Assembly: GCA_021806605.1 (NCBI GenBank)
Contig: JAJZQY010000009.1
Span: forward strand, 1-43,845
Source: Pseudomonadota bacterium
GTDB taxonomy: Bacteria; Pseudomonadota; Gammaproteobacteria; Burkholderiales; JABEVD01
Reading direction: 5' to 3'
Length of the DNA: 43,845 nucleotides
Part shown: in pieces, positions 23,070-43,845 of the stretch
Numbering within the stretch: the stretch's first letter is position 1
Layout: each line of letters starts with the position of its first letter
The notes under the pieces: generated by a model
Seen by the model: only the letters and a program-made list of their open reading frames with translations
Database searches by the model: none
Told to the model about the DNA's origin: nothing
Program-made: the position numbers and the translations under genes

Positions 23070-23101
23070 CGCACTGACACCGGAAATCTGAAGCATGCCA
23101 C

Positions 23102-23121
23102 GCCGGGCGCATTCGCCCGGC
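23102..23121 (+). terminator. GC-rich hairpin after the small exported protein gene
   Basis: GCCGGGCG (23102-23109) and CGCCCGGC (23114-23121) form a perfect 8-base stem with loop CATT. Only AATCCTTT follows, so termination would be weak or Rho-assisted. Confidence 0.45.
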
Positions 23122-23234
23122 AATCCTTTCGCCCGAATGGCTCCCAGCCGGGCAAATCTCCCTGAAAAATGAAACCCCAGGCTTCATCCGCGGAACCCCG
23201 TCTCACTGAAGATGTATTTTTAGTACATTATCTA

Positions 23235-23263
23235 TTGACAGACTTGATGCGGGAAGATAATAT
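23235..23263 (+). promoter_or_regulatory. Near-consensus sigma70 promoter of the candidate sRNA
   Basis: TTGACA (23235-23240), 17 bases, then TAATAT (23258-23263). One of the best sigma70 matches in the window. The predicted start is near 23270, with no gene start for another 166 bases but a strong terminator at 23346. Confidence 0.7.
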
Positions 23264-23269
23264 GCCATC

Positions 23270-23373
23270 GGAATATATCAATTCTTGATGTATTCTGGTT
23301 TGAAGCGGTCAGCGAACCCCTTTTCCTGACCGTGTTGCGGCATTCGAGGGGGAGCTTCCTCCCCCTCTTTTTT
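23270..23373 (+). ncRNA. Candidate small RNA, about 100 nt
   Basis: A strong promoter (23235-23263) is followed, about 80 bases downstream, by a textbook intrinsic terminator, with no reading frame or ribosome-binding site between. The expected transcript has a first hairpin CGGTCAG/CTGACCG (23306-23312 with 23326-23332). Its 13-base loop CGAACCCCTTTTC is single-stranded and C/U-rich, suited to pairing with G-rich ribosome-binding sites. Then comes the terminator hairpin with a second C-rich arm. A leader RNA of the following DsrC-like gene, ended by attenuation, is the alternative. No known sRNA family is recognised. Confidence 0.6.
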
Positions 23374-23416
23374 CGGTGAAAACATCAGCATATCATGATA
23401 GTATCAATAGTTGATA
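23276..23416. promoter_or_regulatory. Two TATCAA-N3-TTGATA operator-like palindromes
   Basis: TATCAATTCTTGATG at 23276-23290 (one mismatch in the right arm) and the perfect TATCAATAGTTGATA at 23402-23416 share the same arms and spacing. The first overlaps the start of the sRNA transcript, the second lies 20 bases before the DsrC-like gene. A third short palindrome TATCATGATA adjoins the second (23391-23400). A common regulator of both transcripts is suggested. Confidence 0.5.
23346..23373 (+). terminator. Intrinsic terminator of the candidate sRNA
   Basis: GAGGGGGAG (23346-23354), loop CTTC, CTCCCCCTC (23359-23367), then six T (23368-23373). Perfect 9-base stem with U-tract. It lies 62 bases before the DsrC-like start. 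Confidence 0.85.
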
Positions 23417-23435
23417 TTTCAAGGAGGACCTGAAC

Positions 23436-23726
23436 ATGCCGGAAATCGACGAAGAAGGTTATCTGATCGAACCCCAGGACTGGAGCGAAGAAATCGCCAT
23501 TGAATTCGCGCGCCAGGAAAACATCGTTCTCACCGAAGAGCACTGGAGCGCGATCCGCTTCATGCGCGAATATTATGCCGAGCACCAGATCGCGCCGGAT
23601 GCGCGCTTCGTGATCAAGCACCTTGGGGAACGGAACAGGCTTTTCGAGCTATTCCCCTACGGCTATGTGAAGCAGGCTTGCAAGATCGCAGGCATGAAGC
23701 GCCCCCGGGCCTGGAGCACGGGCTGA
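23436..23726 (+). CDS. DsrC/TusE-family protein lacking the terminal cysteine
   Basis: A 96-residue DsrC/TusE-type protein. EEGYLIEPQDWSEEIA, LTEEHWSAIRFMREYY and LFPYGYVKQACKIAGM match the family in order. The inner cysteine (Cys82, CysB of DsrC) is kept. The penultimate CysA, which carries sulfur in TusE and DsrC, is missing: the tail is RPRAWSTG, with Trp93 at the expected place. The loop before LFPYG is also shortened. Sulfur relay of the usual kind is therefore unlikely; a regulatory (RspA-like) role is possible. AAGGAGG precedes the ATG. It is followed 39 bases later by the ClC gene. Confidence 0.88.
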   Translation: MPEIDEEGYLIEPQDWSEEIAIEFARQENIVLTEEHWSAIRFMREYYAEHQIAPDARFVIKHLGERNRLFELFPYGYVKQACKIAGMKRPRAWSTG

Positions 23727-23765: not shown

Positions 23766-25562
23766 ATGCAACACGAACATCGCACTCCTCTTGAAGGGGA
23801 GGGATTCAGGATTTTCTTCGTTTCCATTCTTTCAGCGCCGATAGGCATACTTGGCGGCCTAGCCGCCTGGCTGCTCTTCAAGCTCATCGGCCTTTTCAGC
23901 AATTTCGTCTTTTACCAGAAATTCTCGTTCATGCTCCCCATGGATCTTTCGGATCACAGGCTTGGGTACTGGCTGCTTCTGGTTCCTGCCCTCGGCGGAC
24001 TGATCGTCGGCCTGATGGGCAAGTACGGCACGGCAAAAATCCGCGGCCATGGCATTCCGGAAGTCATGGAAGCTGTGCTGACTAACAGAAGCCGCGTGCA
24101 GCCCCGTGTCGCATTGCTCAAGCCGCTGAGCGTCGCAATATCCATAGGAACGGGCGGTCCGTTCGGAGCAGAAGGCCCGATCATCCAGACCGGCGGCGCG
24201 CTGGGTTCCCTGTTCGGTCAGATGATCGAGGTCTCGGCTTCAGAAAGAAAGGTTCTGCTTGCCTCAGGCGCTGCAGCGGGCATGGCGGCCACGTTCTCGA
24301 CGCCCATTTCCGCCGTCATTTTCGCCATCGAACTGCTTCTTTTCGAATTCAAGCCCCGCTCTTTCATTCCGCTCGTGATCTCCGCCACGCTGGCCATGAC
24401 GGTACATGATGCGCTCGTCGGAAACGGTCCGCTGTTCCATGTCTCGCCCATGGATTTCGGTCTGCCTTTTTCGCTCCCCTTTTATGCCCTTCTCGGCATA
24501 CTGTGCGGGCTCGGGGCTGTCGGATTTTCCAGGCTGTTCTACTGGGTTGAGGAACAATTCGAGCGCCTCCCCCTCGATCCCCTCTGGTGGCCGGCGATAG
24601 GCGGCGTCGGCCTCGGCGTGGTGGGCCTTGTCGAACCGAGAGTCCTCGGCGTGGGGTACCAGACCATCACCGCCATCCTGAACGACAAACTCGATCTCCT
24701 GTCGCTCTTTTCCATCCTGATCTGGAAGTCGATCGCGCTTCTTGTCTCGCTCGGCTCGGGCACGTCCGGCGGTCTGCTCGCGCCGATGTTCACAATGGGT
24801 GCGGCTCTCGGCGGCGCCGTCGCCATACTGCTGAACCTGGCATTTCCCGCACTCCATCTTTCGCCGGCGGCTTTTGCCATGGTCGGCATGGCCGCGCTCT
24901 TCGCCGCGGCCTCCCGCGCCACTTTCGCCTTCATCATTTTCGCGTTCGAAATCACCCGCAACTACGACTCCATTCTTCCGTTGATGTTTGCATGCGTGCT
25001 CGCAACGGCAATCGCCCTGAAGATTTCCCGCCATTCCATCATGACCGAGCGACTCGCGAGACGGGGGATGAAAGTGGACCAGAACTACGAAGTCGATCCT
25101 TTCAGGCAGACGAACGTCGAAGACGCCATGGCCGACATCCCCTTCACCCTTCAGGACAGTGCGACAGTCGGCGAAATCGCTTCCCGCATCGCCGCCCACG
25201 ATCCCGTTCTTTCTCTTCAGCAGAGTTTCCCCATTCTGGACGAAAATGGACGACTTTCCGGAATACTTTCCAGAGGCGACATTCTGCGCGCAGTTGAGAA
25301 AGGAGACATGGCAAAAAGCGTGATCGAAGCAGGTCGGCGCGAGCCTGTCGTGGCCTATCCTGACGAGTCGCTGCACGATGCACTTGCCAAGATGCTTTAT
25401 CACGAGGTGGCCAGCCTTCCCGTCGTTGAAAGAGACGATGCCGGACAGATGGTGGGGTTGCTCACGAGGGCTTCGATGCTGGAAGCGAGGCTGGGGCGCT
25501 TCCAAGAGGAACATGTCAGGGAAAAAGGCTGGCTGGGCAAATTGTTCGGCAAGGCCGCCTGA
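23766..25562 (+). CDS. ClC-family chloride channel/transporter with CBS pair
   Basis: A 598-residue protein with a ClC membrane domain (about 1-425) and two C-terminal CBS domains (about 440-575). Ion-path motifs are seen: GGPFGAEGP, which keeps the gating Glu, and GSGTSGGLLAPMF. At the inner proton-glutamate position the FAIELLLFEF segment seems to have Leu, which by analogy could mean channel rather than exchanger behaviour; this is read by eye. CBS domains usually sense adenine nucleotides. AAGGAAGAG precedes the ATG. The next gene starts 5 bases after the stop, joining it to a drug-efflux operon. Confidence 0.92.
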   Translation: MQHEHRTPLEGEGFRIFFVSILSAPIGILGGLAAWLLFKLIGLFSNFVFYQKFSFMLPMDLSDHRLGYWLLLVPALGGLIVGLMGKYGTAKIRGHGIPEVMEAVLTNRSRVQPRVALLKPLSVAISIGTGGPFGAEGPIIQTGGALGSLFGQMIEVSASERKVLLASGAAAGMAATFSTPISAVIFAIELLLFEFKPRSFIPLVISATLAMTVHDALVGNGPLFHVSPMDFGLPFSLPFYALLGILCGLGAVGFSRLFYWVEEQFERLPLDPLWWPAIGGVGLGVVGLVEPRVLGVGYQTITAILNDKLDLLSLFSILIWKSIALLVSLGSGTSGGLLAPMFTMGAALGGAVAILLNLAFPALHLSPAAFAMVGMAALFAAASRATFAFIIFAFEITRNYDSILPLMFACVLATAIALKISRHSIMTERLARRGMKVDQNYEVDPFRQTNVEDAMADIPFTLQDSATVGEIASRIAAHDPVLSLQQSFPILDENGRLSGILSRGDILRAVEKGDMAKSVIEAGRREPVVAYPDESLHDALAKMLYHEVASLPVVERDDAGQMVGLLTRASMLEARLGRFQEEHVREKGWLGKLFGKAA

Positions 25563-29675: not shown

Positions 29676-30470
29676 TCAGGGCGACTGGCTGAAAAATTCC
29701 TTCATCATGAAAGCCTGCAGTTGCGCGTCGTCCTTCAGGCGGGCCGAAAGCACGACTTCGCCGCCCAGTCGATCGGATTTCCAGTTGAAATCGCCGTCGT
29801 AATAGCGTCTGATGATTTCTATCATCTTGCGTACGACGGCGCGCCGCACATCTCCGTCTGCCCCGGCACTGACATCGAACACTTCGCGATGGGAATTGCT
29901 GTATTCCGAATGCCAGCCGAGAAATGAAAACTCGGCCGATTCGTCATCGATCCTGAGGATCTGGAATACGCCGCTGGTGCCTTCCTTTTGTTTCCCGCTG
30001 TCGGGGAACGGCCCCATCGCCTGGGGCTGAACCGGATATTCGTTGGCGCTGGCTTCCCTGCGCGCCCTGGATGCATTGACATAATCCAGGAAGCTCATGT
30101 GCGGCTGCGGAGTGGGGTTCGGCGCGCGCTGTTCTGGAATGGCCACGGCTTTCCTGGAGGGGCGCCTCACTGCGATGATTTTCCTCGTGGTCAGGGCCTG
30201 AGGCACCACAACAGACTTCTGGATCTTTTTCAGGGGAACCAGTTCCACTGCCAGGGGCTGGGTATTCGCATGCGTGATCGCGATCGGGGGATGCCGGAAT
30301 GTCACAAAAAGAACCAGCGCATGCAGCAACAGCGAGACCAGAATCGCGATCGTCAGGTTGCGGCTCAGGCGGATCTTGAAAAAAACGTCCCGCCTTCCCC
30401 AACCCGGACTTTCCAGTTCGAATCCGGCGCCGGAATCAGGCGACGCATCCAGTGGCAGAGGCTCACCCAT
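29676..30470 (-). CDS. TonB-like single-pass inner-membrane protein
   Basis: A 264-residue protein with a soluble N-terminal tail, one membrane helix (about 37-57, LTIAILVSLLLHALVLFVTF) and a long periplasmic part. The helix with an internal His and the following Pro/Lys/Arg-rich stretch (RRPSRKAVAIPEQRAPNPTP) recall TonB or TolA. The C-terminal domain (about 165-264) is not a recognisable TonB_C: it contains FSFLGWHSEYSNSHREVFDV and a helix before YYDGDFNWKSDR. Function unknown. It is convergent with the adaptor gene, 16 bases away. The ribosome-binding site is poor. Confidence 0.75.
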   Translation of the reverse strand: MGEPLPLDASPDSGAGFELESPGWGRRDVFFKIRLSRNLTIAILVSLLLHALVLFVTFRHPPIAITHANTQPLAVELVPLKKIQKSVVVPQALTTRKIIAVRRPSRKAVAIPEQRAPNPTPQPHMSFLDYVNASRARREASANEYPVQPQAMGPFPDSGKQKEGTSGVFQILRIDDESAEFSFLGWHSEYSNSHREVFDVSAGADGDVRRAVVRKMIEIIRRYYDGDFNWKSDRLGGEVVLSARLKDDAQLQAFMMKEFFSQSP

Positions 30471-43423: not shown

Positions 43424-43783
43424 TTATTTAGCGCGCATCGACTTGCGCGGCCCCTTGCGGGTCCTGGCATTGGTCCTGGTACGCTGCCCGCGAACGGGAA
43501 GCCCGCGTCTGTGGCGGAGGCCGCGATAGCAACCCAGATCCATCAGACGCTTGATATTCATGGACACTTCGCGGCGAAGATCGCCTTCCACCGTGATATG
43601 CGTCACTTGATCGCGCAGCTTTTCGACCTCCGCCTCGGTCAGATCCTTGATCTTGGTCGAGGTGCTGATCCCTGCCGCAGCGCAAATTTGACGTGCCCGA
43701 GTGCGACCAACACCGTAGATCGCGGTCAACGCGATTTCAGCGTGCTGATGATTCGGAATGTTAACCCCTGCTATCCGGGCCAT
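43424..43783 (-). CDS. rpsM: 30S ribosomal protein S13
   Basis: A 119-residue S13. [36 protein letters not shown] and the tail [19 protein letters not shown] are typical. It contacts the P-site tRNA and the 50S subunit. GGAGTG precedes the ATG. It heads the part of the operon visible here and has its own strong promoter just upstream. Confidence 0.97.
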
Positions 43784-43812
43784 TCGTTCACTCCAACTTA
43801 GAAAAATTGATA

Positions 43813-43842
43813 ATTATAACACCAGAACCGATCGAAACTCAA
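43813..43842 (-). promoter_or_regulatory. Promoter directly upstream of rpsM
   Basis: On the minus strand TTGAGT (43842-43837), 18 bases, TATAAT (43818-43813), with TG at the extended -10 position (TGTTATAAT). Transcription would begin near 43806, leaving a leader of about 23 bases before rpsM. Confidence 0.6.
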
Positions 43843-43845
43843 TCA

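Follow-up and report, generated by a model that had tools for sequence, protein, structure and literature searches.

A candidate self-terminated small RNA of a predicted NsrR-type regulon ahead of dsrC in uncultured Burkholderiales

Architecture of the locus

The window described here, by which we mean the whole stretch of 43,845 nucleotides that was analysed, belongs to a genome of 1.95 Mb (82% complete) in a genus represented by a set of nine genomes. On its plus strand a dsrC/tusE-family gene is followed by genes for a ClC chloride channel, an MFS transporter, an outer-membrane efflux protein and an HlyD protein, and a lactonase-like beta-propeller gene lies upstream in divergent orientation. 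The interval ahead of dsrC is occupied by a compact series of palindromes, promoter and hairpins closed by an intrinsic terminator, and no upstream gene ends on the plus strand near enough to need that terminator. The features, all on the plus strand, are as follows:

23209-23231, plus: O1, palindromic box AAGATGTATTTTTAGTACATTAT upstream of the -35 element; matches the NsrR 11-1-11 inverted repeat in a pattern search
23235-23263, plus: sigma-70-type promoter TTGACA-17-TAATAT, matching 10 of 12 consensus positions; spacing identical in all related loci
23267-23299, plus: P1, 5' stem of the RNA, 15 bp with a 3-nt loop (arms 23267-23281 and 23285-23299), overlapping O2
23273-23293, plus: O2, palindrome ATATATCA-N5-TGATGTAT, candidate operator at the predicted transcription start
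23305-23333, plus: P2 hairpin, its C-rich loop containing CGAACCCCTTTTC; in relatives the stem sequence is replaced and the pairing kept
23337-23345, plus: conserved single-stranded linker GCGGCATTC
23346-23373, plus: intrinsic terminator GAGGGGGAG-CTTC-CTCCCCCTC followed by six T; perfect 9-bp stem with a 4-nt loop
23403-23417, plus: extra palindrome TATCAATAGTTGATA with an O2-like core, between terminator and dsrC
23436-23726, plus: dsrC/tusE-family gene (Pfam PF04358, E 2.9e-31; NCBIfam TIGR03342) with its own Shine-Dalgarno sequence AAGGAGG at 23422-23428

The initial annotation of this DNA had proposed a small RNA between a near-consensus promoter and a perfect 9-base terminator stem with six T, and both signals are borne out at the positions above. 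When both strands of the 43.8-kb window were scanned for a promoter with a perfect stem (at least 8 bp) and a T-run within ~160 nt downstream, this pair was the only one found. Transcription, which we infer from the promoter to begin near 23270, would yield an RNA of ~104 nt with three stem-loops, the outermost pairs of P1 possibly preceding the transcript start. The segment 23265-23373 folds at -48.5 kcal/mol, against -27.4 +/- 3.3 kcal/mol for dinucleotide shuffles (z = -6.4). The hairpin with the C-rich loop, originally taken to be the first, is real and is the second structure, preceded by the 15-bp stem. The element had also been described as free of reading frames; it carries a single ATG frame of 13 codons (23288-23329, MYSGLKRSANPFS), which has no Shine-Dalgarno sequence and is not kept in relatives; a leader peptide was therefore rejected. 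With its own promoter, an intrinsic terminator and no coding capacity, the element has the make-up of a gene for an intrinsically terminated bacterial small RNA (typically ~50-250 nt).

The same annotation recognised no known sRNA family here, and covariance models of the 4227 families of Rfam 15 agree, giving no match to the element even at E <= 1, a test that would include RsaE/RoxS only if they are represented among those families. A plasmid search found no DNA similar to the element. The only Rfam match of the whole window is an alpha operon ribosome binding site (Alpha_RBS) on the minus strand at 43751-43845, truncated by the window end.

Several neighbouring features deserve mention in their own right. 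The DsrC-like proteins (window 23436-23726 and loci L016-L026) end in ...KQACKIAGMKRPRAWSTG, with one cysteine kept and the usual DsrC/TusE C-terminal cysteine absent. In the window the chloride channel gene clcA (23766-25562; see also L125) separates dsrC from the efflux genes, which is not so in G006. A short stretch at 23080-23208, just before O1, resembles the 3' end of the TlpA-thioredoxin gene found ahead of dsrC in G001 (L017), and the remainder of that gene has apparently been lost from both the window and G006. Between terminator and dsrC (window 23392-23417), the palindromes TATCATGATA and TATCAATAGTTGATA are retained in G006 and, in part, in G001.

Copies and conservation within the genus

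The initial annotation had suggested a covariance search in related genomes. A model built from ten sequences retrieved ten copies, all within the genus, in seven of its nine genomes (best E 2e-19), and under stricter filters none in 291 other genomes of the order. Of the ten, eight stand before DsrC-like genes, the ninth (L014) precedes a gene for a small cytochrome c, and the tenth is an orphan; G003 by itself holds four. A further candidate in that genome (G003:C28), which matched the linker pattern, was rejected for want of a terminator, P1 or P2. At five loci (L019, L020, L021, L023 and L026) the T-run lies ~15-20 nt ahead of the start codon of dsrC. With no space for a second promoter in between, transcription of dsrC at these loci has to depend on read-through, as it presumably does in the window. 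Two dsrC paralogues (L018 and L022) have the same promoter type and no RNA; the RNA is thus not needed for dsrC regulation. In G004, whose dsrC (L018; L120 7542) has a different palindrome, AATATCATCAAAAGATGATATT, overlapping the -35 element in the place of O1, the RNA element is absent genome-wide.

The copies bear the marks of selection on RNA structure. P2 stems that differ in sequence pair nonetheless (GGUCAG/CUGACC, GCGGC/GCCGC, GUUGCA/UGCAAC), and P2 alone beats 1000 dinucleotide shuffles at p <= ~0.004 in seven of eight distinct copies (p = 0.07 in the eighth). Conservation of the element in relatives supports the initial proposal. Against two orthologues the RNA has diverged by 3.8% and 5.7%. 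The corresponding values for third positions of dsrC are 13.5% and 11.5%, so that the RNA changes 2-4 times more slowly than these, and those for the flank upstream are 14% and 22%. Third positions of clcA were dropped as a yardstick because that gene does not follow dsrC in G006, the relative examined. Selection on P1 is harder to read because the stem doubles as a DNA operator: it extends outward by a median of 5.5 bp at RNA loci and 0.5 bp at operator-only loci (Mann-Whitney p = 0.004, n = 8 and 8), in loci that are not independent and with some pairs possibly lying before the transcript start.

The orphan copy (G003:C33:71015-71104) lies on the plus strand between a lactonase gene on the minus strand and a convergent gene of 254 aa, whose stop codon abuts its T-run. 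The orthologue of that convergent gene is found in the window at 29676-30470, past the whole dsrC-clcA-efflux operon; dsrC and the efflux genes are thus missing between RNA and convergent gene in G003, and dsrC was not found on the orphan stretch examined (L113). What remains is intact: promoter, both boxes (O1 and O2), a 12-bp P1, an 8-bp P2 and the terminator. The absence of the operon behind an intact RNA argues that the RNA was kept for its own sake, in a single case whose operon loss cannot be dated and may be recent. The orphan would illustrate how a terminated leader becomes, or persists as, a stand-alone sRNA gene.

A role for the C-rich loop as a conserved anti-ribosome-binding-site seed is not supported. 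The P2 loop varies between copies (UUCU at L023, GCUCA at L026). Exact 10-mers complementary to the one loop of the window showed no excess over the reversed control in three genomes, nor did their matches share a ribosome-binding site before orthologous genes. The seed AACCCCUUUU was rejected since its complement is not commoner than the reversed control and the shared matches lie outside ribosome-binding sites.

Operators and the predicted regulon

O1 was sought in the nine genus genomes as AAGATGYAT-N5-ATRCATYTT with up to two mismatches. Nearly all matches fall at RNA or dsrC loci, at related promoters (of a nirK-like copper oxidase, an outer-membrane protein and clcA) or upstream of an NsrR-like Rrf2 gene; chance was rejected as their source, the reversed pattern giving no match in the same nine genomes. 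Boxes of an NsrR regulon are inverted repeats of the type AAGATGYATTT-N-AAATRCATCTT; the window box fits the pattern with two mismatches and the orphan box with none. The NsrR site of E. coli ytfE is AAGATGCATTTAAAATGCATCTT (PMC5320621), and in beta-proteobacteria nirK is a known NsrR target (PMC1274295). An NsrR-like gene is present in all eight relatives, and in five of them (G002, G003, G005, G007 and G008) O1 lies ~60-80 bp upstream of it; the encoded proteins have NsrR as their best family (E 8e-38), with scores under the NCBI curated cut-off. No such gene was found in the window's own genome, which is 82% complete. G008 holds a second NsrR-like paralogue divergent from a clcA homologue, with O1 and O2 in between; that homologue has an O1/O2 promoter of its own.

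O2 is as specific as O1: the pattern ATRYATCA-N5-TGATRYAT occurs in 1-6 copies per genus genome and its reversed control in none. It is also conserved at loci without the RNA, namely the nirK-like, outer-membrane-protein and clcA promoters. Palindromes of the form ATATATCAC-N3-GTGATATA are present in three genomes (L114 2178, L117 1922, L126 2293), ahead of a small gene whose product begins MLP(Y/F)A..QQTEENDIAKL; they may belong to another regulator.

From these boxes the RNA promoter is probably under a nitric-oxide-sensing NsrR-type repressor. Known NsrR proteins are inactivated by nitric oxide or nitrite, and it is from the family that we infer the inducing signal in these bacteria.

Competing readings and known systems

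We lean towards a small RNA that belongs to an NsrR-type regulon and stands ahead of an operon expressed by read-through, a reading we hold with modest confidence. Inactivation of the Rrf2/NsrR-type repressor would release the promoter; RNA polymerase would then make the three stem-loops and mostly halt at the strong terminator, giving abundant free RNA, while a fraction of polymerases would continue into dsrC and the following genes. Once released, the RNA would most likely act in trans, base pairing through its exposed loop or linker sequence. A more elaborate version is offered tentatively: that the copies form a genus-specific family of sibling sRNAs with diverged loops, under the direct control of a nitric-oxide repressor of the NsrR type and terminated at the heads of dsrC and cytochrome operons, one start providing both a trans-acting RNA and a read-through operon.

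The initial annotation had itself named a mere read-through leader among the findings that would refute its proposal. The strongest rival, possible in our view if less probable than the favoured reading, is a cis-acting attenuator: the RNA would do no more than serve as 5' leader to the dsrC operon, with a protein, a metabolite or translation providing the signal that chooses between termination and read-through. Nine of the ten copies do stand directly before a gene, the five short T-run-to-start distances suit such a leader, and the element also precedes the cytochrome gene (L014). Against this, an attenuator should have its regulated gene directly downstream in every instance, and the orphan has none; nor does the element accompany the dsrC copies that share its promoter. 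A conserved, mutually exclusive antiterminator of the kind expected in an attenuator or riboswitch is absent: with the 3' arm of the terminator blocked, the 5' arm pairs fully with upstream sequence in two of eight copies and not at all in three, and in each of the eight the terminator fold is the more stable by ~10-19 kcal/mol. Pairing between the C-loop and a GGGGG arm, tried as an antiterminator, is present in G000 and L014 and absent from L004, L017 and L021. A conserved leader peptide or Shine-Dalgarno sequence is likewise missing. Because the terminator fold dominates, no antiterminator or leader peptide is conserved and some dsrC copies lack the RNA, a free sRNA with read-through is favoured over a purely cis-acting attenuator.

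The RNA might instead have no regulatory role, its terminator damping basal dsrC transcription and its hairpins shielding the transcript end. That loops diverge freely and that the target search gave none fit such a passive insulator or 5' stabiliser, which we nevertheless consider unlikely: damping needs neither the conserved linker GCGGCATTC nor a structured P2, and at the orphan there is nothing to damp. Least plausible by far is that the 5' hairpin is a DNA operator that happens to read as an RNA stem, the rest being an ordinary intergenic terminator. The conservation of O2 at RNA-less promoters would suit this account, against which stand the conserved P2 and linker downstream of the operator, the further outward pairing of the palindrome at RNA loci (part of it possibly before the transcript start) and the want of a plus-strand gene end close enough upstream to require a terminator. 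Since the orphan keeps the RNA after loss of the genes behind it, the RNA is probably a real regulatory one rather than the mere head of a longer transcript.

Should the favoured small RNA prove true, the nitric-oxide response of uncultured Burkholderiales would include an RNA arm with a connection to sulfur-relay proteins; were the sibling-family version to hold, nitrosative stress would have a post-transcriptional link to genes of sulfur metabolism and electron transfer. In practical terms, the RNA family is now defined, and a model that finds it can be applied to metatranscriptomes. Few small RNAs are, to our knowledge, tied to NsrR, and among the papers searched none links one to dsrC.

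Judged by analogy, the element would work most like the nitric-oxide-responsive, C-rich sRNAs RoxS/RsaE of Bacillus and Staphylococcus (PMC4409812), of which it is not a member. Both are small and self-terminated with C-rich loop(s), and nitric-oxide-responsive control is predicted here. RoxS/RsaE belong to a different phylum, are controlled by the two-component systems ResDE/SrrAB and not by an Rrf2 repressor, and are free-standing genes, whereas the element mostly stands at an operon head; there is neither a sequence match nor Rfam-level similarity, and the C-rich loop is not conserved here. We know of no small RNA or dsrC member in beta-proteobacterial NsrR regulons. Those regulons (PMC1274295) resemble the predicted one in the 11-1-11 box and a candidate Rrf2 regulator; nirK is a known target there, and a nirK-like copper-oxidase gene has the same promoter type here. 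They differ in that a second conserved palindrome, O2, is found here. The Neisseria sRNAs NgncR_162/163 differ in being encoded at tandem loci, with conserved single-stranded seeds and no known NsrR box or dsrC linkage. They are alike in being beta-proteobacterial siblings in more than one copy (PMC9973317). Terminated 5' leaders such as attenuators and riboswitches resemble the element in having a promoter, a structured leader and an intrinsic terminator just before the start codon, and differ from it in that the element lacks a known sensor fold as well as any conserved antiterminator or leader peptide, and in that one of its copies has no gene downstream. Set beside all of these, the predicted RNA is best regarded as representing a new family.
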